Shown here piece by piece: positions 1 to 13,859 of a stretch of DNA of 64,000 bases. The stretch's first letter is position 1. The number at the start of each line of letters is the position of its first letter. The notes under the pieces were generated by a model, which had not been told where the DNA came from, did not search any database, and saw only the letters and a list, made by a program, of their open reading frames with translations. The DNA lies in NCBI GenBank assembly GCA_020444275.1, contig JAHLLG010000004.1, forward strand, positions 186,001 through 250,000. Reading direction: 5' to 3'. The position numbers and the translations under genes are program-made. The DNA is from Bacteroidota bacterium (lineage in GTDB: Bacteria > Bacteroidota > Bacteroidia > Bacteroidales > UBA12077).

Positions 1-1
1 T

Positions 2-1405
2 TATGAATTAACTAAGATTGGAATATTAAATAATGTTCTTATTAACCTACATAATCAATTTGGTGATTATTTATCTGTAAATCAAAAATTTTATAGTTCA
101 GAAGATGTTATTAATGAATCTTTTAAAGCTAATCAAGAAATAGTTTTACAAAATTTACAGGATAACATATTTCTTGTTAATAAAACTAATGACAGTGAAA
201 TATTTGAAGAAATTTTTAACAAATTAAAGTCATTAAATATCCAATTAAAAAAATCTTCAAAGATTAAATCAACACAACCTAATATACAGCTAATCCATGA
301 TAAAGAATACTACCAAAAATATTATTCAAAGGATTTATATCAGAAATCTACAAGCGACACTCCTATTCAAAATTTAACATTGCAGCAATTCATTAATTAT
401 AAAAAGACATCGAAAACCACAGAACCATTGCTATTTAAGATTTTAAATGAGTTAAGTATCAAAAATAATATTTGTAAAAAAAGAATAACATTATTTGATT
501 GGGAAAGCCTAGGGATGCCTTATAAAATACACCTTGGTTATAAAAAAGTAGATTATATAAAAGATGAAAAGCAAGAAACATTTTTCTTTCTTACAATTTA
601 TCCTGATGGTTATCTTGAATATAATGCACTTACTCCTAATCTTTTTTCAAGTGAACTACACTGGAAGTTATTAGAAATTTATAAAAGCTATAATTATTGT
701 AAAGATAAAATTGAAGCAGTAATTATTACAGATAATGGAGATGTTAACTTAATATTGAGAACGAATTTCCAAACCTATCCAGACTTAAAAGGAGTTAATG
801 GATATGTTATGGAAGGAGTTGATGTCAAAGATTTTAATATTAGTAAAGAAAACCTTTTAAAAAAGATTGAGACTTTCATAAATGAAAATGACGAAGAGAA
901 AATTAATCCTATAAAAGAATTTAAGAAAATAATTATCTCAAATCCGTCTGATAACATTGATGGTGAATTTCTTGTTAACGAATATAAAAAACTTGGTAAG
1001 TCAAAAATCATATTTGAGTTTAATAAATACTTCAAAGACATATTTAATGTTTGGCTAAGACATGCAGTTAAGAATAAAGAAGTTACAGAAAAATACTACA
1101 GTGCTTTAGTTGATATTTCAATTGCCAAAACTCATGAAGGAGTCTTTTATTGGGCAAATAAAGCGATGAAAGATACTCAAGGGAAATTCTTAAAATCAAA
1201 TATAATTAGAAAGATCGAAGTTGTTCAAGGTGAAGAATTTTCCTTAAAATTATTAATGAAGACATTAAATGTAGCTTTTGTAAGAATAAATGCCCCAACA
1301 GTACTTCCGTTCCCGGTAAAGTTATTAAATGAATATGTAAATAATTATGAACGACCTATAATCAATGATACAGGAGACTTTTTAAATAACTTGAAATTAA
1401 AATAA
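2..1405 (+). CDS. unrecognised protein, 5' end outside window, upstream of hsdR
   Basis: The reading frame is open from base 2 without a stop, so the gene starts left of the window; at least 467 codons are present. A TTG at 380 is not a convincing start because the frame continues upstream of it. The protein is Lys/Asn/Ile-rich, has no signal peptide or obvious membrane segment, and shows no motif I can assign. It has an N-terminal helical, charged part and a middle part rich in aromatic beta-like segments. It stops 2 nt before the hsdR ATG, so the two are almost certainly co-transcribed. It does not resemble HsdM (no DPF/NPPY methylase motif) and I see no HsdS-type recognition domain. A role linked to the restriction system is inference from position only. 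Confidence 0.75.
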   Translation, partial: YELTKIGILNNVLINLHNQFGDYLSVNQKFYSSEDVINESFKANQEIVLQNLQDNIFLVNKTNDSEIFEEIFNKLKSLNIQLKKSSKIKSTQPNIQLIHDKEYYQKYYSKDLYQKSTSDTPIQNLTLQQFINYKKTSKTTEPLLFKILNELSIKNNICKKRITLFDWESLGMPYKIHLGYKKVDYIKDEKQETFFFLTIYPDGYLEYNALTPNLFSSELHWKLLEIYKSYNYCKDKIEAVIITDNGDVNLILRTNFQTYPDLKGVNGYVMEGVDVKDFNISKENLLKKIETFINENDEEKINPIKEFKKIIISNPSDNIDGEFLVNEYKKLGKSKIIFEFNKYFKDIFNVWLRHAVKNKEVTEKYYSALVDISIAKTHEGVFYWANKAMKDTQGKFLKSNIIRKIEVVQGEEFSLKLLMKTLNVAFVRINAPTVLPFPVKLLNEYVNNYERPIINDTGDFLNNLKLK

Positions 1406-1407
1406 CT

Positions 1408-4400
1408 ATGAATACTCCATCATTCAAAGAAGATCACATTAGCCAAATACCTGCTTTGCAGTTTTTGCAAAATATTGGCTATACATATCTTTCTCAGGAA
1501 GAAGCAATGCAATACAGAAAAGGTAAAACAACCAATATATTGCTTGAAGATATTCTTAGAACTCAGCTAAAAGAAATTAATTCTATTAAAGTCAGTTCTA
1601 CAAAGACAACGGTATTCAGCGATTCAAATATTGAGACAGGTATTGTTGCACTTAAAGAATTACCAATGAATGAAGGGTATATTTCTGCAAGTGAAACCCT
1701 ATATAACTTATTGACACTAGGAAAATCGCTTGAACAAAGTATTGATGGAGATAAGAAAAGTTTTACACTTCAATACATTGATTGGAAAAAACCTGAGAAC
1801 AATGTTTTTCATGTTACAGAGGAATACAACGTAATGCGAAGTACGAGTAAAGATCATTATCGACCTGATATTGTACTATTTATTAATGGTATTCCTGTTT
1901 GCATTATTGAATGTAAACGTCCTGATATGAAGGAGCCTATTCAACAAGCTATTTCACAACATTTAAGAAATCAACATGAAGATGGAATCCGTTCATTATA
2001 TGTTTATAGTCAATTATTATTAAGTATTGCCACGGATTCAGCATCTTATGCTACAAATGGAACACCTGAAAAGTTTTGGGGACAGTGGAAGGAAAAGTTT
2101 ACTTCAAAAGATGATGAGAGATCATTTAAAGATGAGATATTAAGATTAAAAAACAGTTCATTACTTGAAGACAAAAAGAAACGCTTATTTGGTGATCGTT
2201 TTCGCTACATACGCAAATACTTTGACCTTTTAGAAAAAGAAAACATACTTCCGACTGTTCAAGATGAATATTTGTATTGTCTATGTAAACCAGATAGATT
2301 AATGGATTTAATCTATAATTTCATACTCTACGATGCAGACCAAAAAAAAGTAACTCGATACCAACAATACTTTGCAATAAAAAAAACAATGCGAAGAATA
2401 ACGACTCTCGATGGAGGAAAGCGTAAAGGAGGTGTTATTTGGCACACACAAGGAAGTGGAAAGTCGCTTACAATGGTAATGTTAGCACAAGCCATTGCAT
2501 TGGAGAAATCTATCCTTAATCCTAAAATAATACTCGTTACTGATCGAGTAGACTTGGACGACCAAATAACAGGTACATTTAGAAAGTGTGGATTATTTGT
2601 AGAGAATGCAACAACAGGTCAAAGATTAGTTGATTTACTTCAAAGTAAAAGTGATGCAGTAGTTACTACGGTAATTAATAAATTTGAGGCAGCAGTTAAA
2701 AAGATAAAGAATCCATTAGATTCACATGATATTTTTGTTTTAGTTGATGAAGGACATCGTACTCAATATGGTAGTTTTAATATTCAAATGCAACGTACCC
2801 TGCCCAATGCTTGTTTTATTGCAATGACTGGTACACCATTAATGAAAAAAGAAAAAAATACAGCAGTAAAATTCGGTGGAATTATTGATGCTTATACAGT
2901 AGATCAGGCTGTTAAGGATGGAGCAGTTGTTCCATTACTTTATGAAGGAAGGCATGCAATGCAAAAAGTTAATGCAAACCCAATAGATAATTTCTTTAAT
3001 ATGATTTCAGAACCTCTTTCCGATTATGAGAAAGCAGATTTGAAAAAGAAATTTAGCAGAGCCGACCAATTAAACATTGCAGACCAAAAGATATATGCAA
3101 TTTGTTGGGATATTAGTCTTCATTATAGGGACAACTGGCAAGGTACTACACCTTTTAAGGGTCAAATAGTTTGCCAAAATAAAGATGCAGCAATACGTTA
3201 TAAAAACTATTTAGATAATATTGGAATTGTTTCAAGTGATGTGCTTATTTCACCTCCTGATGTTCGAGAAGGTGAAGATTCTGCATTTGGTAAAACAAGT
3301 GATCTGGTGAAACAATTCTGGGAAAAAATGATAGATGAACATGGTAATTCTAAAAAGTATGAGAAAAACATTATTAATAGATTTAAAAACAATGATCGTC
3401 CAGAGATAATAATAGTAGTAGATAAACTACTCACAGGTTTTGATGAGCCTAAAAATACGGTTTTATATCTTACTAGAAGCCTTAAAGGTCATACCTTATT
3501 GCAAGCAATAGCAAGAGTTAATAGAGTTAGTCCTGATAAAGAATATGGTTACATTATTGATTATTATGGTGTACTTGGGGAATTGGATTCAGCTCTTGAA
3601 TTATATTCTTCATTAGAAGATTTTGAAGAAAGCGATTTGATAGGAACACTAACTAATATCAATGAAGAAATAAAGAAACTACCACAAAAACATTCCGAGG
3701 TTTGGGATATATTTAAGTCAATATCAAATAAGAGAGATGCCGAAGCTTATTCACAATTGTTGCGGGATGATGCTGTCCGAGTTATATTCTATGATAAATT
3801 AGCAAAGTTTGCTAGAATACTAAAATTGGCATTATCTTCTATTCAGTTTCATAATGAAACAGACCCTAAAACAATTGATCGATACAAAGATGATTTAGCA
3901 TTTTTCTTAAAATTAAGAGTTTCAGTTATTCAAAGATATTCTGATAAGGTAGACTATAAGCAATATGAAGGTCAAATTCAAAAATTGATTGATACGCATG
4001 TACAGACTGATGAAGTAAAATCAATAACTGAACTTGTGAATATTTTTGATAAAGAAAAGTTTCAGGAGGAAGTTGAAAAAACTATGGGAGAAGCTGCAAA
4101 AGCAGATAAGATTGCTTCCAGAACAGCAAAACATATTACTGAAAAGATGGAGGAAGACCCTGCTTTTTATAAGAAGTTCTCACAGATGTTAAAAGAAGCC
4201 ATCAAGGAATATGAAGAACATAGAATATCAGAAACAGTTTATTTGAACAGAGTTAGGGAAATCATGAATGCTGTGCTATCTCATACAGACAAGGAGATGC
4301 CAAAAGAGTTGATAGACCGAGAAGTGGCTCAGGCATTCTATGGGTTAAACCTTGAAATGTTATCTGAAAAAGTAAATGATAAGACAATATTAAATAGTAT

Positions 4401-4635
4401 ATCTGTAGCCTCTGCAATAAGTATTGACGATATAGTGCAAAGTACAGTTTTAGATAATGGAAAACCTATTGTTGACTGGCAGTTAAAATCCAATATTACT
4501 GGTAAATTATTAATTGATATTGGTGATTACCTAATTGATGAGGTAAGGGATAAATATAATATAGAGTTATCTTTTGATGATATGGATAGGTTATCAGAAA
4601 AATGTATATCAGTTGCTAAAATAAGGTATAAATAA
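1408..4635 (+). CDS. hsdR: type I restriction enzyme, R (endonuclease/translocase) subunit
   Basis: The 1075-aa length is typical of HsdR, the motor and nuclease subunit that cuts foreign DNA after ATP-driven translocation. An N-terminal PD-(D/E)xK nuclease is visible, with D154 followed by E168-C-K170. A superfamily 2 helicase follows: Walker A GSGKS at 349-353, the DEGH box at 447-450, and a TGTPL motif shortly after. The C-terminal third is helical, as expected for the domain that contacts the methylase. No HsdM or HsdS lies in the window; they may lie to the left, beyond the partial gene. The gene starts 2 nt after the preceding stop and its own stop overlaps the next ATG, so it sits inside an operon. 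Confidence 0.95.
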   Translation: MNTPSFKEDHISQIPALQFLQNIGYTYLSQEEAMQYRKGKTTNILLEDILRTQLKEINSIKVSSTKTTVFSDSNIETGIVALKELPMNEGYISASETLYNLLTLGKSLEQSIDGDKKSFTLQYIDWKKPENNVFHVTEEYNVMRSTSKDHYRPDIVLFINGIPVCIIECKRPDMKEPIQQAISQHLRNQHEDGIRSLYVYSQLLLSIATDSASYATNGTPEKFWGQWKEKFTSKDDERSFKDEILRLKNSSLLEDKKKRLFGDRFRYIRKYFDLLEKENILPTVQDEYLYCLCKPDRLMDLIYNFILYDADQKKVTRYQQYFAIKKTMRRITTLDGGKRKGGVIWHTQGSGKSLTMVMLAQAIALEKSILNPKIILVTDRVDLDDQITGTFRKCGLFVENATTGQRLVDLLQSKSDAVVTTVINKFEAAVKKIKNPLDSHDIFVLVDEGHRTQYGSFNIQMQRTLPNACFIAMTGTPLMKKEKNTAVKFGGIIDAYTVDQAVKDGAVVPLLYEGRHAMQKVNANPIDNFFNMISEPLSDYEKADLKKKFSRADQLNIADQKIYAICWDISLHYRDNWQGTTPFKGQIVCQNKDAAIRYKNYLDNIGIVSSDVLISPPDVREGEDSAFGKTSDLVKQFWEKMIDEHGNSKKYEKNIINRFKNNDRPEIIIVVDKLLTGFDEPKNTVLYLTRSLKGHTLLQAIARVNRVSPDKEYGYIIDYYGVLGELDSALELYSSLEDFEESDLIGTLTNINEEIKKLPQKHSEVWDIFKSISNKRDAEAYSQLLRDDAVRVIFYDKLAKFARILKLALSSIQFHNETDPKTIDRYKDDLAFFLKLRVSVIQRYSDKVDYKQYEGQIQKLIDTHVQTDEVKSITELVNIFDKEKFQEEVEKTMGEAAKADKIASRTAKHITEKMEEDPAFYKKFSQMLKEAIKEYEEHRISETVYLNRVREIMNAVLSHTDKEMPKELIDREVAQAFYGLNLEMLSEKVNDKTILNSISVASAISIDDIVQSTVLDNGKPIVDWQLKSNITGKLLIDIGDYLIDEVRDKYNIELSFDDMDRLSEKCISVAKIRYK

Positions 4636-5330
4636 TGAGTTCATATATTCAGTTCGGTTCAAAGCAGATAGAGTATCAGTTAAAGTATTCTGAACGAAAA
4701 ACATTAGGAATAACAGTTAATCCTGACCTATCGGTTTTAATTAAAGCTCCTTTAAATACTCCAATACAAAAGATCGAAGAAAAACTTTTAAATAAGGCGT
4801 CATGGATTATAAAGCAACAAAGCTTCTTTTTGTCATTCTTCCCTAAATCACTTCCCAAAAAATATGTTAGTGGTGAAACACACCTCTATTTGGGTAGACA
4901 GTATCGTTTAAAGATTGAAAAAAGTAAAGAGACATCGGTAAAGCTGAAAGGTAAATATCTAATTGTTAAGACTCCTGACAAAGGGAAAACAGAAAAATTA
5001 GTAAAAGGGTGGTATTTAAAAAATGCTAAAACAAAGTTTCATGAATATACTGAACCCTTAATTGAGCAGTTCAGGAAATACAATGTTGAACCTGAATCAT
5101 TAGTAATTCGTGATATGCCAACTCGTTGGGGAAGTTGCACACCAAAAGGAAAAATAATTTTAAATCCAGAACTTATAAAAGCACCCAGAGGTTGCATAGA
5201 ATACGTTATTATACACGAATTATGTCATTTAGTACATCATGATCACACAAAGAGATTTATAGACCTGCAAACTAAAGAAATGCCTAATTGGGAAAGGTGG
5301 AAAACTAAGTTAGAAGACTTGCTAAAATAA
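4635..5330 (+). CDS. YgjP-like (DUF45) zinc metallopeptidase-family protein
   Basis: This 231-aa protein has the zinc-binding HELCH motif at 194-198 followed by H204 (within VHHDHTKRF), as in the YgjP/WLM family of small cytosolic metalloproteases. The N-terminal half carries the family's beta-rich region, and RWGSC near residue 166 is the usual family motif before the HExxH helix. Its ATG overlaps the hsdR stop by one base (TAATG), showing translational coupling. YgjP-like genes are common neighbours of type I restriction genes, but their role there is not established; control of HsdR levels by proteolysis is a possibility only. Family assignment is firm, function is not. Confidence 0.9.
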   Translation: MSSYIQFGSKQIEYQLKYSERKTLGITVNPDLSVLIKAPLNTPIQKIEEKLLNKASWIIKQQSFFLSFFPKSLPKKYVSGETHLYLGRQYRLKIEKSKETSVKLKGKYLIVKTPDKGKTEKLVKGWYLKNAKTKFHEYTEPLIEQFRKYNVEPESLVIRDMPTRWGSCTPKGKIILNPELIKAPRGCIEYVIIHELCHLVHHDHTKRFIDLQTKEMPNWERWKTKLEDLLK

Positions 5331-5449
5331 TATACATATTATATGGTCTTTTTAAATAGACAAATATTGACTATAAAAACACACAATTAATTTAAACAAT
5401 TTTTACTATCTTTATGTAAGAAAAGACGTTTAAATTAACATTTGTAAAT

Positions 5450-6049
5450 ATGGTGTATGCATATGTAAGGGTTTCATCCGACAAACAATCTCTGGAAAAT
5501 CAGGAGTACGAAATATATAAATATGCGGATAATAATAAACTGAAAATCCAAAAGTGGGTAAAGGAAACCATTAGTTCAAGAAAAAAGATTGAAGAAAGGG
5601 AGTTATTTAACCTCATCCAAAAACTTAATGCAGATGATATACTATTGGTTTCTGAAATTTCAAGATTAGGTCGTAACATAATGGAAGTTATGAATCTGCT
5701 CAAAGAGTGCATGGAAAAAGATGTAAAGGTGTACTCTATAAAAGAGAATTATAAATTAGGTAATAATATTGAATCAAAAGTTCTTGCTTTTGCATTTAGT
5801 CTGTCTGCTGAGATAGAAAGAGACCTTATTTCACAGAGAACTAAAGAAGCATTAGCCAGAAAGAAAAGTGAAGGTAAAACTCTTGGCAGACCTAAAGGAA
5901 GTCTTTCTAAAGAAACGAAATTGTCTGGTAAGGAAATTGAAATTAAAGAATTACTAGATAAAAAAGTATCTTTAAGTGCTATTAGTAGAATTTATGGAGT
6001 ACATAGAATAACAGTTAAAAATTTTGTAGATAGCAGAATATTAAATTAA
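5450..6049 (+). CDS. serine recombinase (resolvase/invertase family)
   Basis: The 199-aa protein has the small serine-recombinase layout. An N-terminal catalytic domain carries YVRVS (catalytic Ser probably S9, Arg R7) and the ISRLGR and EIERDLISQRTKEA segments of the family. The long E helix is followed by a GRPKGS linker and a C-terminal helix-turn-helix (about residues 160-199). Members of this family in Bacteroidetes (Mpi-like) invert promoters or hsdS cassettes. This one stands 120 bp after the restriction operon, but no matching inverted repeat pair is evident in the window. Its substrate could lie left of the window. It may instead be a resolvase of the island. Confidence 0.92.
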   Translation: MVYAYVRVSSDKQSLENQEYEIYKYADNNKLKIQKWVKETISSRKKIEERELFNLIQKLNADDILLVSEISRLGRNIMEVMNLLKECMEKDVKVYSIKENYKLGNNIESKVLAFAFSLSAEIERDLISQRTKEALARKKSEGKTLGRPKGSLSKETKLSGKEIEIKELLDKKVSLSAISRIYGVHRITVKNFVDSRILN

Positions 6050-6134
6050 TTTTGGAATACAGATCAAAACAGTTTTAAATGACATAAACAAGTAAAAGAG
6101 GAAGATATATAACATATTAGTCGCTGACATTTTC

Positions 6135-6277
6135 TTAGACTGAAAAATCGCCAATTTTTATGCACCAGAGAAAATGATCTAAGTGGCGTCCAGTATGGGC
6201 GCACCTTGATCGTATCTGGTGCTAGGTTCTGGCGAGCCTTCAGTCTGATACAGTTTCAGGGATGCGCCTCTTTTTTT
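6135..6277 (+). ncRNA. candidate structured RNA: nested long hairpin with oligo-U end
   Basis: Four helices nest inside one another: 6135-6144 with 6239-6248 (10 bp), 6148-6153 with 6230-6235 (6 bp), 6162-6169 with 6215-6222 (8 bp, GCACCAGA/TCTGGTGC), and 6183-6191 with 6197-6204 (8 bp, one bulged G, AGTAT loop). Two pairs are G-U wobbles that work only in a plus-strand transcript. A run of seven T follows at 6271-6277, before the ATG at 6295. The segment is clearly richer in G and C than its surroundings. It could be a free small RNA, a cis-acting leader of the next gene, or a folded recombination site. No known family is recognised, and pairing was done by eye. Confidence 0.5.
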
Positions 6278-6294
6278 AAATAAAATTTGAAATT

Positions 6295-7671
6295 ATGAAA
6301 CATACTGGATTAATTATTTTATTGATTATTGCATCAAAGCTTTGTATAAGTCAGACAATAAAAAACTATAAAGGTGATTTTGGAAATGGTAAAGCATCAT
6401 ATACTTATTATGACAATGAAGACTATGAAAGAGTTTTTCATGGAAGCTTCGAGTATACAAGTAAATCGCCAGCGTTAATAAAAGGAATTGTTTACACCTC
6501 ATCAACAAAAGTTAATGGCAATTTTGAAAAAGGAGAAAAAACAGGTCGATGGTCATTAAATACTAATGTGTTAGACGATAACGACAATGTACTTAAAAAC
6601 ACAAAAGTCGATGGTAAATACATTAATGGAAAACCAACAGGTGTCTGGCAGATAGTTTATATAAATACTAATACTGGTGATACGACTAATAGTAAAATTA
6701 AATATTCAAATGATGGAAATTTAAAAGAATTTCAAGCTGATAAGATTGATGGTAGTTTCAATGATAATGGGAAATTTGATGGAAAATGGAGAGGTGTTTA
6801 CTGGAATAATCAGGATGAAAAAATGGAGCGGGTATATGAATTTAACAACGGAATTGTTTTAAAATGTATCACAAGAGAATTTGAAACAGGTGAAATAACA
6901 GACAGATATGATATAACTGCTCTTGTGAATGACTTTTATTCAAATTACAATCAAGAACTAAACTATTCTCACATTAATGGTAAATTCTACACTCTTGAAG
7001 AGGTCAATTTTACTCAGAATAGCTATTTAAACCCTGAGGAAGATTATGTACACAACTTATTAAGTATTCTTATAAATTGGTTGCCAGAACCGTTTTACTG
7101 GATTAATGGCAGAGATGAAAATAAATCATATTCTTTCGAGAATATTATTAAGGAAATATCCAAAGATGAATTAATAGCTTTATACAATAAATCCAATAAA
7201 TCGGATAAACTTATTGACAGTTTGATACTTGCACAAGAGAACATTAATCAACAAAGGATTCTTGAAGAAAAACAAAAAGAACAACAGGAACTCGAAATAA
7301 AAAAGGAAAAACAGGAAAGAAATCAAAGACATGCAGACTTGCTTTTAAAGTATGGTAGTGCTTACACCTTTACTCGAAGTGAATATGAATCCAAAAGTAA
7401 AAATAAAGCATATGAAATTCTTTTGCAGGATTTTTTCAAATGTGATGGTGAAGGATATGAATTATCCCAATGTATTGAAGGTAAATTGAAAGAAAAAGGA
7501 ATTAATATTAATAGCAGGATTCAAAATGAAGATACATTTAATGAATTAGTAAGAATTGACAGTTTTATACTCAAAGTAAAAAACGCATTAGAGAATCTTG
7601 ATAAAGAATCAGAAAAGCAATTAAAAAAAGCTAAAAATACTCAAGAAGTGAAACACATTCTAAGTTTATAA
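6295..7671 (+). CDS. secreted protein with MORN-like repeats and coiled coil
   Basis: The 458-aa product starts with a signal peptide (hydrophobic stretch 5-18, likely cut after the Ser-Gln-Thr region near 20). Three or more YwqK/MORN-like repeat units of the pattern G-x-F/Y-x-x-G-K-x-x-G-x-W occur between about residues 70 and 175. A highly charged Glu/Lys/Gln coiled-coil segment spans about 310-345 and a helical C-terminal part follows. It probably sits in the periplasm or on the cell surface. The ATG lies just after the structured RNA candidate, with an A-rich leader. No enzyme motif is visible and the role is unknown. Its presence between defence genes may be chance cargo. Confidence 0.8.
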   Translation: MKHTGLIILLIIASKLCISQTIKNYKGDFGNGKASYTYYDNEDYERVFHGSFEYTSKSPALIKGIVYTSSTKVNGNFEKGEKTGRWSLNTNVLDDNDNVLKNTKVDGKYINGKPTGVWQIVYINTNTGDTTNSKIKYSNDGNLKEFQADKIDGSFNDNGKFDGKWRGVYWNNQDEKMERVYEFNNGIVLKCITREFETGEITDRYDITALVNDFYSNYNQELNYSHINGKFYTLEEVNFTQNSYLNPEEDYVHNLLSILINWLPEPFYWINGRDENKSYSFENIIKEISKDELIALYNKSNKSDKLIDSLILAQENINQQRILEEKQKEQQELEIKKEKQERNQRHADLLLKYGSAYTFTRSEYESKSKNKAYEILLQDFFKCDGEGYELSQCIEGKLKEKGININSRIQNEDTFNELVRIDSFILKVKNALENLDKESEKQLKKAKNTQEVKHILSL

Positions 7672-7949
7672 TACTAGCCTTTTTGCAATAGGGTAACTTC
7701 TCACCTATTACACCTGAATAATTTAGGTCATGTGCATTATTAGAATTGAATTATTCAACATCCACAGGTTTTAAGTTCTATTTTAAAACCAAGAAGATTG
7801 CTTCAAATATTATGTAAAATTTGATTACTTTTATATATAAAGAAATTATTTATCTGTTTTGCACCAAAGTTTGTGCTGTTCAAGGATATTTACTACAACA
7901 AAGTTAGTTGTCAAACTTTTAAAAGAGAGCCTTACACATAAAAAACACA
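7672..7949. other. hairpin-rich intergenic region before the five-gene cluster
   Basis: No coding region is seen. Three local inverted repeats occur: AATAGG with CCTATT near 7687-7709, CCTGAA with TTTAGG near 7711-7725, and GGTTTTAA with TTAAAACC near 7768-7791. None is followed by a clear T run. The region should hold the promoter of the gene at 7950, but I find no full TTTG-N19-TAnnTTTG match. Confidence 0.4.
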
Positions 7950-8807
7950 ATGAAAATTGTCTCATGGAACATAGGTGAATACGGAAAAAGATGTAACACT
8001 TTCCCAATAAAATTTAGAGTTCTTCGTGACTTGATTAGAACTGAGAATGCTGATGTTTTCTGTATAATTGAAGGAACTCAATCTCAGAAACATAATAGAT
8101 TATTGAAGTATTTATTTAAACTCGAGAATTATACTTGTTATTATGATCCTTCTATACCAAAGAAAAGAAATGATGAATTTGATTGGAATGACTATGATAC
8201 TTATGGTATAAAAATATTTATAAATAATACTTCTAATTTTGGAATCCCAAACCTTGACCCAAGTACTGTTTTATTTAAAGGACGATTATTAAAATTAGAG
8301 ATTAACAATTATTTATTTGTCTTTTTACATAGAAATAGGAGTGCTGAAAACTATGATCAAGATCAATATATGAGACAAATAAAGAGATGGGTAACAAGTC
8401 GACAAAAAGATAGGATTAAAAATGTTTATATAATTGGAGATTTTAATTTAAGTATATGGGACGAAAAGTATTTCTCTGAAAAATCAGGATATATTCGTAC
8501 TAGTGTTATCTATCGCCAGTATGAGTTAAGAGTAAAAGAAAACTCAGGTATTGATTTTTTTAATCCTATAATTGAAGTGATCAACAAGAAAAACCAGCTT
8601 AATCTAGGTGGAACATATTATGGGAATAAAAAATATGGCTGGGCAATATTAGATTATATCCTTGTTAAAAATTGGGGCGATAATACTACTTCTATTGATA
8701 TTTTAACTTCATCCGAAAACTATGAGTTAATAAACAGCAATGAAAATACCAACAAATACATAAACCATAATTTTGATCATTTACCTATTAAACTTCAAAT
8801 TTCATGA
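7950..8807 (+). CDS. endonuclease/exonuclease/phosphatase (EEP) fold protein
   Basis: The 285-aa protein shows the EEP superfamily signature along its whole length: SWNI at 5-8, a metal-binding Glu in the CIIEG segment near 41, FLHRNR near 125, GDFNLS near 163-168, LDYIL near 235 and the terminal DHLPI near 277. Such proteins are Mg-dependent nucleases or phosphodiesterases. No signal peptide is present, so it should act in the cytosol. Its stop overlaps the start of the next gene by 4 bp (ATGA), and it heads a run of five same-strand genes with gaps of 24-33 bp. Placement next to Shedu and TIR genes suggests nucleic-acid cleavage in defence; the substrate is unknown. Confidence 0.88.
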   Translation: MKIVSWNIGEYGKRCNTFPIKFRVLRDLIRTENADVFCIIEGTQSQKHNRLLKYLFKLENYTCYYDPSIPKKRNDEFDWNDYDTYGIKIFINNTSNFGIPNLDPSTVLFKGRLLKLEINNYLFVFLHRNRSAENYDQDQYMRQIKRWVTSRQKDRIKNVYIIGDFNLSIWDEKYFSEKSGYIRTSVIYRQYELRVKENSGIDFFNPIIEVINKKNQLNLGGTYYGNKKYGWAILDYILVKNWGDNTTSIDILTSSENYELINSNENTNKYINHNFDHLPIKLQIS

Positions 8808-9220
8808 AAACTCTTGATTTATCATATTTAAACATTCCTGAAGAACATCCAGTTATAGAACTGCTGAAAGGATATGGCGGACAAATTTCAAATAAAACGA
8901 ATCATTATATTACTTACATATGGGCTACAGGAACAGGCATTAATACCGACGAGATTCGTTCTTTTTCTTTTTATCTAGTAGCTCCAGAAATAGACAGACA
9001 GCATAAACTGATTTCGATTGATTATGAAGATATCGCTACTTTAAAAGTGATTTTATGGCCATTAGATTCAAGCCCTGAACATTTTGAAGTCAAAATAAGT
9101 AAAGGTGATCTTAATAATCTTGATGAAAAATTATTTGATATTTTTAATCATCAAGAAACAAGAAAAATATTAACTCATTTCCTAAAACAGACATTAATAA
9201 AGTTACAACTGAGAAAATAG
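8804..9220 (+). CDS. unrecognised 138-aa protein coupled to the EEP nuclease
   Basis: The ATG overlaps the stop of the EEP gene by 4 bp, so translation is coupled and a physical partnership is likely. The product is small and acidic, with alternating beta-like segments in the first 100 residues and a Lys-rich helical C-terminus. There is no signal peptide, membrane segment or catalytic motif that I recognise. An inhibitor, a specificity factor or a sensor for the nuclease are all possible. The A-rich stretch and 24-bp gap to the Shedu gene keep it inside the same transcription unit. Confidence 0.8.
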   Translation: MKTLDLSYLNIPEEHPVIELLKGYGGQISNKTNHYITYIWATGTGINTDEIRSFSFYLVAPEIDRQHKLISIDYEDIATLKVILWPLDSSPEHFEVKISKGDLNNLDEKLFDIFNHQETRKILTHFLKQTLIKLQLRK

Positions 9221-9244
9221 ATGTTGTTAATTATCTAAAATATA

Positions 9245-10573
9245 ATGCAAAAACCAGCTCAATACACAAGAAAAGTTACGAGAGGAGATACAATTATTGT
9301 ATACTCTAAATCATTCAATGTTACCGAAAAGGGTTTGAGAAATGCCCAAGCTTATGAAAAGAATGTTTCTACAAAACAAGTAAAAGGTGAAAAACTAAAT
9401 TGTAAAATAGATAAAAAGGACAAAACTATTATTGTATTTACACCAAACAACTTTCCATTGCCTCATTTTAAAATCATTGGAACTACTTCATTATCGAGGG
9501 TAAAGGGAACATATTCTAACACAGGAGCTTTTTATAAAGGATTTGGTGATATAATTCAGGAAATAGCAGAAAGTATTTCTAACCTAAAAGAATTAAATAT
9601 TGACTATACAAAAGATGCAGAAACAACTATCAGAAAGTACCGTAAAAATCGTTTCTTAACTATTAGTGAGAAGGACTACAACTATATGCACGGACTGTTT
9701 CAAACTGAGAAAAAGCTTAGCTCTGATAATTCAAAGGTTGAAATAATAAAATACCTTCAACAAAGAATTCCAGATATTGAAGTCGAGCAAAAGAAAAGTA
9801 AAGAAATTGTTTCCAAGGATTTTAAAAATTTAATCTTCCATGAAGTATTAAATGATCTAAACAAGAAACAAGTCAAAGATTTATTATTTCAACTTTATGA
9901 CCAATATTATGATGTAATTGATTCTAAAATAGAATTATTTAAAGAAACGGATACATACAAATTGGATTATATCATTAATGAATATGAGAAGAATTTAAAA
10001 GAACACTCTAGTGATGAAACTACGTGGCAATTATTTTTTGAAGAAAATTTCAGCATCATTAATCCTAGTTATAAATATGTAATAAGGGAAGTTGATACAA
10101 TTTTTAATGATCTTGACATAGAAGCAGATAAAAGACCAATAGATTTTATTGTTGTTGATATATATAATAGTATTGAGTTAATTGAGATAAAAACTCCAAG
10201 TGCCCCAGTAATATCTTCTAATAAAGACAGAAACAATTACTATTTAGTTCACAATTGCACTAAAGCATGTACTCAACTTGAAAAGTACTTATTATGTTTT
10301 GAACGAAATCACGAAGAAGTTGAAAAGCTGGTTAAAAGAAAGATTTCAAAAAAATATGGGCTTAGACAAAAAGATATCAATCTCTTAACAACAAAACCAA
10401 AAGCTAAATTAATTATTGGAAAATTAGAACCTATAACAAAAAAGAAATCAAGACATCAGGACTTTCTGTTACAGCGTCATAGTTTTAAAAACATTGAGCT
10501 TATTACATATGATGAAATTTTAAAGAGCTTAAAAGAAATTAAGCGTGAATTAGATTCTAGAAAAAAGAAGTAA
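9245..10573 (+). CDS. sduA: Shedu-family antiphage nuclease (DUF4263)
   Basis: The C-terminal half of this 442-aa protein carries the DUF4263 PD-(D/E)xK nuclease. A conserved ETTWQLFFEENF segment (about 259-270) is followed by D300 in PIDFIVVD, then E314-I-K316 in the strand that ends in a TPSAPV turn. Next comes the helix with the AcTQLEKYL pattern that carries the family Gln. SduA alone is an established Shedu antiphage protein; it forms oligomers and cuts DNA. The N-terminal 230 residues are the variable region thought to sense the phage signal; here they hold beta-rich and coiled segments without a recognised domain. It is third in the five-gene cluster. Confidence 0.88.
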   Translation: MQKPAQYTRKVTRGDTIIVYSKSFNVTEKGLRNAQAYEKNVSTKQVKGEKLNCKIDKKDKTIIVFTPNNFPLPHFKIIGTTSLSRVKGTYSNTGAFYKGFGDIIQEIAESISNLKELNIDYTKDAETTIRKYRKNRFLTISEKDYNYMHGLFQTEKKLSSDNSKVEIIKYLQQRIPDIEVEQKKSKEIVSKDFKNLIFHEVLNDLNKKQVKDLLFQLYDQYYDVIDSKIELFKETDTYKLDYIINEYEKNLKEHSSDETTWQLFFEENFSIINPSYKYVIREVDTIFNDLDIEADKRPIDFIVVDIYNSIELIEIKTPSAPVISSNKDRNNYYLVHNCTKACTQLEKYLLCFERNHEEVEKLVKRKISKKYGLRQKDINLLTTKPKAKLIIGKLEPITKKKSRHQDFLLQRHSFKNIELITYDEILKSLKEIKRELDSRKKK

Positions 10574-10606
10574 AACATTTTAATACCAAAAATATAAGAC
10601 TCAAAA

Positions 10607-11458
10607 ATGAAAGATTGGAAGGCTTTTATATCTCATGCTTCTGAAGACAAAGAGCAATTTGTTAGAAAGCTATATCATTATTTAACAAAGCTAGGACTAA
10701 AGATATGGTATGATGAATTCACTTTAAAGGTAGGTGATAGCTTATCAAAAAGTATTGACATTGGTTTGAAAGATTCCGAATATGGAATTGTTATTATAAG
10801 CAAAGCTTTTTTAGAAAAGAATTGGACGGACTATGAATATCGTTCTCTATTGACTAGAGAAATTAATGGAGAAAAAGTCATTTTACCAATTTGGTATAAT
10901 ATTACAAAAGAAGAAATCTCAAAATACTCACTTTACCTTGTTGATAAGTTTGCAATAATTGCAACTGAAAATAATATCAATCAAGTTGCTCTTAAACTAC
11001 TTGAAGTTATTGAACCAAACATTTATAAAAATATTAGTAGGTATTTATATTATAAGAAACTTATTAGTGAAGCTGAACCTTCTACTGCAAAAAGCGGTGA
11101 ATTTAAACCATCAGAAATAAGACATGAAAAATTAAATAAGTCCTTAGTCAATAGAAGTGAAATATTATATGAGCTAATTTTTAAACCTTTTTTTGGACAC
11201 AAGGACTTAGAAGAAACCCTAGATGGTTTTAAACGGGATTTATATCCAAGTAGAGAAATTCAAGTTTGGGAAGCTATATTGGCAGTATATTTAATTTATT
11301 CTCAAAAAAAAGAAATTACAGATTATGTTTTATTAAAAGATATTGTAATGCACTTGGTATATTTTTCAACTGGGAATGTATATGATAAAACATATTTAGA
11401 AACAGAGCAACTTCTTGAGTTGATGGAAATGCTTAATCAGAGAATGAAAGATTTATAA
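10607..11458 (+). CDS. TIR-domain protein, probable NAD-consuming defence effector
   Basis: Residues 1-125 form a TIR domain: AFISHASEDK at 5-14, an IWYDEF strand with the family's Asp, and VIISKAFLEKNWTDYEY, in which E77 fits the catalytic Glu of NADase TIR domains. The remaining 160 residues are helical, with no recognised fold. Bacterial TIR proteins deplete NAD or make signalling nucleotides on infection. Here the protein follows Shedu by 33 bp and precedes a DUF4365 gene by about 30 bp. No SAVED, STING or SIR2-like partner is seen, so it is not an obvious Thoeris or CBASS member. Confidence 0.88.
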   Translation: MKDWKAFISHASEDKEQFVRKLYHYLTKLGLKIWYDEFTLKVGDSLSKSIDIGLKDSEYGIVIISKAFLEKNWTDYEYRSLLTREINGEKVILPIWYNITKEEISKYSLYLVDKFAIIATENNINQVALKLLEVIEPNIYKNISRYLYYKKLISEAEPSTAKSGEFKPSEIRHEKLNKSLVNRSEILYELIFKPFFGHKDLEETLDGFKRDLYPSREIQVWEAILAVYLIYSQKKEITDYVLLKDIVMHLVYFSTGNVYDKTYLETEQLLELMEMLNQRMKDL

Positions 11459-11488
11459 TTACAGTTGGTAATAAACACAGAGAATAAC

Positions 11489-12571
11489 ATGACTACTAAA
11501 TGGACACAAAATAAAAAGACTGAATTTCTAGGTGTTGATTATGTTGCTCAAGTAATAAATAAATCAAATTCAATATTTAATAAGGTTGATGGTTCCAATG
11601 ATATTGGATTAGATGGTTATATTGAATTTATAGAAAATGAATCTGCAACAGGGTTATGTGTTGGAATTCAGATAAAGTCAGGTAATTCTTATCAATCAGC
11701 AAATAAAGAATTTGCTGTAATTACAGCAGATGTAGATCATTTTGAATTCTGGAAAAGTCACATTTTACCTATTGCAGGTGTAGTCTATATTCCAGAAGAT
11801 GATATAGCATATTGGATTGACCTATCAACCTTCTTAAAAGACAATGATTTAAAAGGACCTTACACGATTAGAATTTCAAAAAAGAGTATTTTTACACATG
11901 AGACCTTTTCAGAGTTTTATAAAAATTTTATTGCTTATAAGAATAAATATAATACAGATTGGAATTTTGGTAAAGCATTAAAAGGATTACTTCCTATAAA
12001 AGATAGAGATACTAGAATTGAATCAATAAAATCACTCTTTTACTTTCATAGAAATGATATTGAAAGTTGGTACTACATTATAAATCAATTCATGATTGAA
12101 GATGATTTTGATGTTGAAAATGTAATTATATTTACATTAAGGCACGTAATTAGTCATGGAGATATCTTCTGGCATAAAGGTAATTTTGTTAATGATTCTG
12201 TTCGAAGTTTTGCAAGAGGATTAATTAAAGACAAATTCTCAAAAAAAGAAATTGCAAAACTAGTTAGGCATATTGATGAGGGAGGTATCACTAGAGGAAG
12301 TATGGGACAAAATATTTATCCTATCATTGATCTAGTAACAGAGAAGATTGATTTTCTCAAAAATGTCATACTTGATAAATCCACAGATGATAATTCGAGG
12401 ACATGGGCAGGTGTTATTTTGATAAATGAATTTCAACAATATGATATTGATAGAGCAATTAAGTTTGCTGAAAGTATGATATATAACTTTCCTGATTCAG
12501 AGAATACTGAACAATTTGAATTAATTCGAGATAGTTTAAGAAATGATGGCTTTGTAGATTTTACAGGCTAA
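11489..12571 (+). CDS. DUF4365-domain protein, PD-(D/E)xK-like nuclease fold
   Basis: I place the start at the ATG at 11489 (360 aa) because the in-frame TTG 24 bp upstream would add a poor N-terminus close to the preceding stop. The first 150 residues match the DUF4365 pattern: conserved TEFLGVDYV, then D42 in DIGLDG and Q61-I-K63 in the IQIKSG strand, a variant of the restriction-nuclease active site. The C-terminal 200 residues are helical and resemble HEAT-like repeats. It is last in the five-gene cluster, 40 bp before the stop of the oppositely oriented integrase gene. A role in DNA recognition or cleavage is inferred from fold and company. Confidence 0.82.
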   Translation: MTTKWTQNKKTEFLGVDYVAQVINKSNSIFNKVDGSNDIGLDGYIEFIENESATGLCVGIQIKSGNSYQSANKEFAVITADVDHFEFWKSHILPIAGVVYIPEDDIAYWIDLSTFLKDNDLKGPYTIRISKKSIFTHETFSEFYKNFIAYKNKYNTDWNFGKALKGLLPIKDRDTRIESIKSLFYFHRNDIESWYYIINQFMIEDDFDVENVIIFTLRHVISHGDIFWHKGNFVNDSVRSFARGLIKDKFSKKEIAKLVRHIDEGGITRGSMGQNIYPIIDLVTEKIDFLKNVILDKSTDDNSRTWAGVILINEFQQYDIDRAIKFAESMIYNFPDSENTEQFELIRDSLRNDGFVDFTG

Positions 12572-12611
12572 AACTAAATCTATTGTATTTCTTGGCATTC
12601 CAGATTTATTA

Positions 12612-13859
12612 CTAAGTCTTCTTCCTAAACTTAGTAAGGTGATTTGAAGATTTCTTTTTAACATCGAACCCAAAACTACCAAGATATTTCTCAGTAGTCT
12701 GTGTCGAACTATGACCCAGTTGTTCCTTAATAAATTCTGCGGTCATTCCTGATTGCATCATAACAGTTGAATAAGTATGGCGAGCTACATAGGTTGTTAG
12801 TTTAACTGGAATATTAAGCTTGTCTCCTATTTCCTTCATATACTTATTGATTGATTTGGTTGATTGATGAATCCTTTCATAAATTTGTTTGTCTGATAAA
12901 CCTTCTCTAAGTATTGGAAAAACATACTTATCTTTCAGTATAGGTTTATTCCCCCACTTTTCTATGATAGACCTTAGATCATCTGTTAAAGCAGCCTCTA
13001 TTGGCTCTAAATCCTTTTTTCTAGAGTTTGCTGTTTTTGAACGAATATAAACTATAGCTTGGTTAGTAATGTTTTTGTATTTCAATAGTGCCATATCTTT
13101 CACATTGATACCATTACATAAATATGAGAAAATCCAAAGATCTTTTGCTTTATCTTCTGATGAAAATGGGATAGTCTGGTAGTTGAATATTTTCTCAATA
13201 TCATCTATTGATATCGCTCTCTTTTTATTTCTACTAGATGGGATATTATACTTTGATTTGCCAAATGGATATATTTTATTATTTATAACACCCTCTTTGT
13301 GTGCATAATTAAAAATAACCCTTAATGGACGTAGATAAATACCAACAGTTGATATTGATTTCCCGCATTTAATCATCCACTTTTCATAAGCTTTCAGAAA
13401 ATGTTCTGTAATATCAATAAATTCAACATTTTCATTATTGCAAAATTCAAATATTGAGTTTTTGCTACAAACAAAAGTTTGGGCATAGCTGTAACGCCCT
13501 TCTGCTTCAAGTTTTCTAATATATTGATTATAGACTTCTTTAACTAAACCCGCAGAACTAAATTGAATCTTTAGATATTTCTCAAACTGCTCTAAAGAAA
13601 AGAACTGAAGGCTTTGAATAATTTCATTTGCCTTAGCTTCTATAGCCTCCAGTTTTAGCTTTATTTGTTTTAACTCTCCACGAGGTTTAGGTGAAAATAC
13701 TTTGTCAAAATCTTCTTGTGTAAGGTCAAATTCTGTTACAAAATATTTTTGTTTTCTCTTATGTGTTACTCGAAGTTTAACGGGGTGTTTCTCATTTTTC
13801 TTTTTGTAACGTGTATCAAGAATTATAGCAGTGGTTGCCGCTGGTTTCATATTTTTCAT
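12612..13859 (-). CDS. int: tyrosine recombinase (integrase) of the island
   Basis: The 415-aa protein has the Bacteroidetes integrase layout: an N-terminal arm-type DNA-binding domain (about 10-90), a SAM-like core-binding domain (about 105-195) and a C-terminal catalytic domain. Visible catalytic parts are the Lys strand (YIRSKTANSRKK), VARHTYSTVM with the second Arg, LGHSSTQTTEKYLG with His and the nucleophilic Tyr. The usual first Arg (in TGLR) is replaced, the segment reading CNGINVKD. The related CTnDOT integrase also lacks that Arg, so activity is still plausible. It points away from the attachment site, only 129 bp from it, as expected for the enzyme that integrated the element. Confidence 0.95.
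   Translation of the reverse strand: MKNMKPAATTAIILDTRYKKKNEKHPVKLRVTHKRKQKYFVTEFDLTQEDFDKVFSPKPRGELKQIKLKLEAIEAKANEIIQSLQFFSLEQFEKYLKIQFSSAGLVKEVYNQYIRKLEAEGRYSYAQTFVCSKNSIFEFCNNENVEFIDITEHFLKAYEKWMIKCGKSISTVGIYLRPLRVIFNYAHKEGVINNKIYPFGKSKYNIPSSRNKKRAISIDDIEKIFNYQTIPFSSEDKAKDLWIFSYLCNGINVKDMALLKYKNITNQAIVYIRSKTANSRKKDLEPIEAALTDDLRSIIEKWGNKPILKDKYVFPILREGLSDKQIYERIHQSTKSINKYMKEIGDKLNIPVKLTTYVARHTYSTVMMQSGMTAEFIKEQLGHSSTQTTEKYLGSFGFDVKKKSSNHLTKFRKKT

Follow-up and report, generated by a model that had tools for sequence, protein, structure and literature searches.

A gene cluster that begins at position 6295 of the window, the 64,000-nt stretch of Bacteroidota DNA analyzed here, is preceded by a conserved, structured RNA of about 180 nt. 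Judged by the compensatory changes present in its relatives, the fold of this RNA is under selection, and the family to which it belongs heads accessory genes; in the window it heads a defense cluster. Given its position and layout, we propose, with a probability of roughly 60%, that the RNA is the 5' leader of the cluster and would work as a transcription attenuator with a riboswitch-like arrangement. The proposal that it switches by attenuating transcription draws on the structure, the promoter motif, the co-oriented gene, the complementarity between tail and tip, and the U-tract, all of which are present in the sequences.

Structure of the window element

Positions 6120-6277 of the plus strand are folded by RNAfold into a long hairpin that is interrupted at regular intervals. 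The nested hairpin of the preliminary description is thus confirmed as part of a larger object than first noted. Its helices of 10 bp (6135-6144/6239-6248, with one G-U pair), 6 bp (6148-6153/6230-6235), and 8 bp (6162-6169/6215-6222) have the lengths originally given; the fourth, also put at 8 bp, was approximate, because RNAfold yields 6 + 3 bp here (6174-6179/6208-6213 and 6181-6183/6205-6207), followed by an apical helix of 7 bp (6186-6192/6196-6202). An outer helix, 6094-6101/6267-6274, is present in longer folds of the window copy and has been left out of the conserved structure.

The pairing is denser than chance would give, as had been claimed. The folding energy of the 143-nt plus strand is -59.0, compared with -36.2 +/- 3.8 for dinucleotide shuffles (z -6.0), and 0 of 200 shuffled sequences fold as well; the minus strand of the same stretch has a z of -5.3 relative to shuffles. 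For 189 nt (6090-6278), the corresponding values are -73.3 and, again for dinucleotide shuffles, -44.0 +/- 3.8 (z -7.7). In a scan of the whole window in 50-nt steps, the element is the strongest 150-nt fold on either strand. Furthermore, the hairpin lies, as first described, in a GC-richer patch (0.45 versus about 0.30 around it) of an AT-rich island that carries HsdR, SduA (Shedu), TIR, and DUF4365 genes, and between a recombinase gene (5450-6049), which encodes a serine recombinase, and a gene for a putative secreted protein (6295-7671).

All parts of the window copy are given for the plus strand. A putative promoter (6023-6054) consists of TTTG at 6023-6026 and a -7 box, TAATTTTG, at 6047-6054, which overlaps the stop codon of the recombinase gene. 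A small 5' stem-loop, GUC-GCU-GAC, follows at 6120-6128, where many other copies have AAGCGTTAGCTT. The 5' strand of the P1 stem (6135-6144; helix 4 of the model) pairs with its 3' strand at 6239-6248, a helix seen both in the fold and in the alignments. The 5' box, AAAAATCGCCAATTTTT (6143-6159), has AAA...UUU flanks around a 6-nt core, and this core, UCGCCA (6148-6153), forms the core helix with UGGCGA (6230-6235), a pairing indicated by covariation that could represent either a nested duplex or kissing loops. The central hairpin P3/P4 (6162-6222; 6162-6183 with 6205-6222), which is present in the fold and supported by covariation, is capped by the tip hairpin (6186-6202), and the 3' box, AGGUUC-UGGCGA-GCCU (6224-6239), might form a hairpin of its own, H3 (AGG:CCU). 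The tail, GGATGCGCCTC (6260-6270), complements the tip's 3' strand (6197-6203), which could thus pair with it instead (GGCGCA:UGCGCC plus one G-U); in the window copy, the tip 3' strand reads TGGGCGCACC and the tail GGGATGCGCCTC. Directly 3' of the tail is a terminator-like U7 tract, the T7 tract of the preliminary description, at 6271-6277. The first gene after the leader encodes a 458-aa putative secreted protein without a Pfam match, and the co-directional genes that come next (7950-12571) encode an Exo_endo_phos protein, an unknown ORF, an SduA (Shedu) C-terminal domain, a TIR domain, and DUF4365.

Covariation, strand, and distribution

Sequence searches with blastn gave no useful relatives: besides the window itself, the genus and family yielded two short matches (22 and 29 nt), and the phylum yielded short matches only, with E values of 0.003 or worse. 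Consequently, a covariance model was built from the single window copy. With a cut-off of E <= 0.1, this model located 21 places, spread over 17 other genomes, among 295 genomes of the order. In its best matches, the 5' arm has letters resembling AAAATCGCCAATTTT and the 3' arm letters resembling TTTGGCGATACC. A pattern containing both boxes then matched at least 120 loci in the GTDB genome collection. Both boxes are fixed in this pattern by construction, and their conservation in the pattern set is therefore uninformative; how the boxes vary was assessed instead from copies that a model had found.

Compensatory changes in these homologues, on which, along with a transcript, the earlier proposal of a structured RNA was to stand or fall, strongly favor the structure. 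In an alignment of 75 rows that was fitted to a model, 90% of the cells pair and double changes occur at 52 of 54 pairs; the covariation score is 0.703, compared with 0.188 after shuffling (reached by 0 of 500 shuffles) and at most 0.095 for slid partners. It should be noted that alignments A5 and A6 were fitted to models descended from the window copy and favor its structure, whereas A4 was not so fitted, and that antisense rows were kept, two in A5 (window minus and L073 minus) and one in A6 (L051 plus). From a MAFFT alignment of 52 rows, made independently of the model, RNAalifold recovers P1 and the core helix only (15 pairs), and both sides have changed in 21-29 rows at seven of eight P1 pairs. 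Within P1 as modeled, double changes are found at 9 of 10 pairs.

In model-found copies, the 6-bp core covaries (TCGCCA/TGGCGA, CGACCA/TGGTCG, CTGGTA/TACCAG, CTTCGA/TCGAAG). Its 5' strand lies between AAA and UUU, and its 3' strand usually lies between GGY and RCC. The pairing of the latter flanks, H3, itself covaries (pairing runs of 4.49 versus 3.98 +/- 0.07 when shuffled between members), whereas the AAA:UUU pairing of H5 on the 5' side is mostly invariant (4.93 versus 4.68 +/- 0.06), and the H5 hairpin is weakly supported. For these reasons, it is possible that H5 and H3 form with their loops paired to one another, giving a kissing four-way junction; the alternative is a simple nested duplex.

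As was first suggested, the element probably acts as an RNA transcribed from the plus strand. Across all model pairs on this strand, there are 514 G-U pairs and 103 A-C cells, the latter being what is expected if the opposite strand folded. The core helix alone has 0 G-U pairs and 4 A-C cells; thus, the strand argument rests on the remaining stems. In addition, 113 of 200 copies have the motif TAnnTTTG with its start 25-110 nt upstream of the model, compared with 12.6 +/- 3.3 in shuffles that keep base composition rather than dinucleotides, and with 13 on the opposite strand. PMC6414381 and PMC9723704 give TAnnTTTG as the published Bacteroidetes -7 box consensus. Among 29 copies fetched from the phylum sample, 19 have the TAnnTTTG box and all 29 have a T-tract. 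The promoter motif has 7 matches in the window, where 3.9 are expected, so that the window's own match is weak when taken alone.

The family is widespread, occurring in Bacteroidota and some other bacteria, and apparently has not been described before. A second model, R2, was positive in 43 of 395 genomes and 28 of 171 genera of the phylum sample, the genome of the window included. The record titles among the pattern matches listed are mostly those of Bacteroidota, the others being Deltaproteobacteria, Desulfobacterales, further names of the Desulfobacterota type, Cloacimonadota, Ignavibacteria, Lentisphaeria, and one Clostridia. Matches per genome ranged from 1 to 8 in 14 chosen genomes, and the genome of the window has one; among the matches counted, a few are weak (E 0.001-0.007) and one is antisense. 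Three of 12 other chosen genomes have 20, 12, and 9, both sets having been picked as known or expected positives. In Millionella massiliensis (L270), an RNA copy (4261-4419) lies about 157 nt 3' of an RNase P RNA gene (3623-4104).

Only three pattern loci (L185, L186, and L187) are on viral contigs, and two of these are nearly identical; they head accessory-type genes, one of which reads like HSDR_N, and are perhaps prophage cargo. Phage sequences gave only chance-level matches to the window copy and one partial match to a different query. Searched with one Capnocytophaga copy, plasmids gave no match, and with window positions 5440-7700 as the query, the 20 best of 28 plasmid records match the recombinase part only.

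Rfam 15, whose library includes Flavo-1, gave no match to the window copy at the gathering score or up to E 10, none among 11 other loci, and none among 7 loci up to E 0.5. No earlier description of the RNA was found in the literature searched, mainly open-access papers. One comparison in that literature is Flavo-1 (Weinberg et al. 2010, cited in PMC9723704), which PMC9723704 presents as a computational RNA motif of Flavobacteriaceae with no known function. Like the RNA described here, it was found computationally and has some matches in transcribed 5' regions. However, Flavo-1 is reported there both sense and antisense to transcripts, whereas the new RNA is strongly co-oriented with the next gene, and the members searched matched nothing in Rfam, whatever the family name.

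Downstream genes and the boundary of shared DNA

Among the 123 pattern loci listed (three of them viral, two of these nearly identical), the next gene, as judged with our own ORF caller, is co-oriented with the RNA in 106 of 112 cases and opposed in 6, and 11 loci gave no such gene; upstream genes occur in both orientations, 72 versus 47. A further 50 places gave 45 of 48 co-oriented, 3 opposed, and 2 undetermined. When pairs of copies were compared for shared DNA of more than 150 nt (185 of 202 members were usable and 11 pairs fell below this cut-off), 52 pairs shared downstream DNA only, 16 upstream only, and 5 both; of these, 12, 5, and 3, respectively, are pairs within one genome.

These observations bear on the suggestion, also made in the preliminary description, that the element is an autonomous small RNA. 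Such an RNA would have its own promoter and terminator and act in trans, its neighbors having merely settled behind it, and this would fit the promoter motif and U-tract, the diversity of the neighboring genes, and the 16 pairs that share upstream DNA without downstream DNA. However, co-orientation of 106:6 and 45:3, the 52 pairs that share downstream DNA alone, start codons that lie only a few nucleotides past the tail in the class of small HTH-like genes, and as many as 20 matches in one genome make a trans-acting RNA unlikely, and less likely than a cis-acting leader.

What the RNA heads varies widely. First downstream ORFs, present at 133 of 142 loci, were divided by a simple sequence rule into 23 small HTH-like proteins, 49 with a signal-peptide-like start, and 61 others. 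"Small HTH-like" is our own label, since four such proteins checked separately gave no match, although HTH_26 in 3 of the 111 downstream proteins scanned by Pfam (the window's own added) lends it some help. Among the 25 commonest of 82 Pfam families listed, no family occurs in more than 4 of these 111 proteins. Long genes resembling those of surface receptors follow several copies of the Flavobacteriia type; in the one such gene scanned, at L229, the domains are TonB-dependent receptor Plug and CarbopepD_reg_2. In the same genus as the window, a copy in genome G015 lies about 2.7 kb from a resolvase-like gene and is followed by an ORF of 134 aa, a restriction gene of the HsdR type, and an ORF that by reading resembles HsdM. 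Thus, the RNA does sit among defense genes in the window, as the preliminary description implied, but a role confined to defense would not cover the relatives, which also head signal-peptide, outer-membrane, HTH-like, or unknown genes. In a distant host, Carboxylicivirga (L094), the RNA is followed by a relative of the 458-aa protein (30% over 218 columns); around five weaker homologues, the stretches fetched contain no RNA copy.

Several arrangements around individual copies may be recorded here. Window positions 1-13859 form a compact defense island (HsdR, serine recombinase, Exo_endo_phos nuclease, SduA, TIR, and DUF4365, along with a gene that we take from its sequence to be metalloprotease-like), at the end of which stands a minus-strand tyrosine integrase. 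In one genome, L259 and L260 head large proteins that have nearly the same signal peptide and different bodies. In L192 (1-4250), alternating repeated small genes, which might be a duplicated immunity-type array, stand before one RNA copy.

The order of promoter, structured RNA, U-tract, and gene would also suit an RNA antitoxin of a type III-like toxin-antitoxin pair. Against this, the RNA is a single unit without tandem repeats in 97 of 100 loci, and the downstream proteins span receptors to methylases; the ToxN family is absent from the 25 commonest of the 82 Pfam families listed. Consequently, an antitoxin appears extremely improbable.

In some pairs, shared DNA ends at the RNA itself. L045 and L064 are 87% alike over about 1.5 kb of upstream DNA plus the RNA (3.2 kb at 89% in longer stretches) and share nothing beyond it, and homology likewise ends near the U-tract in L101/L120, L067/L153, and L139/L145. 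Since the downstream DNA changes at its 3' end, the RNA is not bound to one gene; in some lineages, this end is thus also a boundary at which cargo is exchanged. The break does not fall at the U-tract in every case: L116/L164, L118/L183, L135/L182, and L075/L170 are alike for 50-100 nt past the last box. We read the boundary as the result either of recombination between repeated leaders or of capture behind a ready-made promoter and leader.

Such boundaries raise the question of whether the element acts as DNA, being a folded recombination site like the attC of integrons or the conserved edge of a mobile cassette. An integron attC is an imperfect hairpin at the edge of exchangeable cargo, which is also true of the present element. 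In addition, copies are dispersed within genomes, and paired copies occur: two nearby copies are found in L073, L125, and L139 among 100 loci, and two copies 1.2 kb apart in L191. However, unlike attC, the element has pairing and a conserved promoter motif that favor a plus-strand RNA, as well as a co-oriented gene downstream with upstream genes in either direction. Furthermore, no second copy lies elsewhere in the stretches scanned (up to 8 kb each), so no pair of RNAs flanks the cargo there; RAYT-type transposase motifs occur at only 2 of 142 loci and serine recombinase motifs at 7 of 142; and some pairs, as noted, remain alike past the last box. The recombination site put forward in the preliminary description is thus disfavored, even though cargo changes at the 3' end, and a DNA-level function of either kind is very unlikely.

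Two more specific links were considered and rejected. The RNA is not tied to the recombinase, since the nearest recombinase homologue (66%, in G002) has no hairpin beside it and no model match in 16 kb; scans of viral sequences gave one distant locus (28%) for the recombinase and none for the downstream protein. A link to RAYT genes was dismissed on the motif count given above. In L189, the cargo behind an RNA copy includes, at about 6309-6944 of the reverse complement, what by motif is presumably a REP-associated-tyrosine-transposase-like gene. In L073, a Cloacimonadota record, the two copies (1794-1942 and 2005-2153) are in tandem before a response-regulator-like gene.

Tail, tip, and a possible control module

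Throughout the family, the 3' end is organized as in the window. Of 202 copies, 195 have a T-tract after the tail, and the tail tends to complement the 3' strand of the tip hairpin and therefore to repeat its 5' strand. The tip x tail duplex has an average energy of -12.96 kcal/mol with a copy's own tail, compared with -8.68 kcal/mol with the tails of other members, and in 176 of 195 copies the own tail binds better than the mean; against tails that differ, its median rank is 0.079, and only 83 of 195 own tails reach a rank of 0.05 or better. Judged by sequence and pairing energies, the tip hairpin and the tail:tip helix are mutually exclusive, and the U-tract comes next. Because one strand thus has two partners, one of which gives a helix ending in a U-tract, the layout is that of a terminator/antiterminator pair.

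Based on this layout, the following mechanism is proposed. P1 closes a folded domain in which the two boxes pair with one another and the tip hairpin is apical. If the tail captured the 3' strand of the tip, the resulting GC-rich helix and U7 would stop RNA polymerase; if the tip hairpin held, polymerase would continue into the gene. The state of the boxes, whether H5/H3 kissing or one long duplex, would bias this choice, perhaps helped by a ligand or protein. Copies of the small-HTH class have their start codon only a few nucleotides past the tail; consequently, the same pairing could act on translation in those copies instead.

The proposed attenuator shares with riboswitches and other attenuators that have a terminator platform its place in a 5' leader, an upstream promoter motif, exclusive helices leading into a U-tract, and a covarying fold. 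It differs from them in that the family has no known ligand and heads unrelated accessory genes. Moreover, the strand used for the terminator here comes from the 3' half of the apical hairpin, and because the tip lies within the folded domain, the terminator helix would be a pseudoknot. A leader-peptide attenuator was rejected: upstream ORFs of at least 8 codons are found in 104 of 202 members, fewer than the 160.6 of controls shuffled for base composition rather than dinucleotides. A second hairpin with GGG in its loop follows the U-tract in 18 of 195 copies, compared with 5.2 +/- 2.1 in shuffles of the same kind; it is enriched but rare.

Several observations count against an attenuator. Most small-ligand aptamers conserve more nucleotides than this family, which has few conserved nucleotides besides the AAA, UUU, and CC of the boxes. 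Downstream genes without a common pathway would be odd for a metabolite sensor. In several Flavobacteriia copies, 230-550 nt separate the end of the model from the first sizeable ORF. The own tail is not always the best partner, 6 of 112 and 3 of 48 downstream genes are opposed, and the five weaker homologues of the 458-aa protein lack a copy in the stretches fetched. The change of downstream DNA at the RNA 3' end in L045/L064 and three other pairs, and the absence of G-U pairs from the core helix, also count against it.

The lack of a common pathway, the few conserved bases, and the several copies per genome would also be compatible with a leader that binds RNA polymerase or promotes processive antitermination through long AT-rich accessory operons. 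The put RNA and EAR antitermination elements are structured elements at the head of accessory operons, as the present RNA is. However, their layout is different, the tail that pairs with the tip before a U-tract being a feature of the present RNA, and an antitermination leader would have no need of a tip-repeating tail and a U-tract. Thus, we regard a put- or EAR-like leader as quite unlikely.

Taken together with the attenuator hypothesis, the distribution of the RNA allows a broader, and doubtful, suggestion: that the family is a portable control module, a single ancient RNA switch that combines a four-way junction of kissing loops with a terminator in the form of a pseudoknot, which bacteria have multiplied to as many as about 20 copies per genome and set before accessory genes (those for surface proteins and receptors, restriction systems, and defense clusters), has a 3' end that serves as the point of cargo exchange, and might place unrelated genes under one signal. 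The RNA itself is well supported, is found in about one in nine of the sampled genomes of the phylum, and has no Rfam match; it would thus represent a new regulatory class. Its study could provide a handle on how the bacteria that carry it may switch accessory genes such as restriction systems, TonB-dependent receptors, and defense islands.
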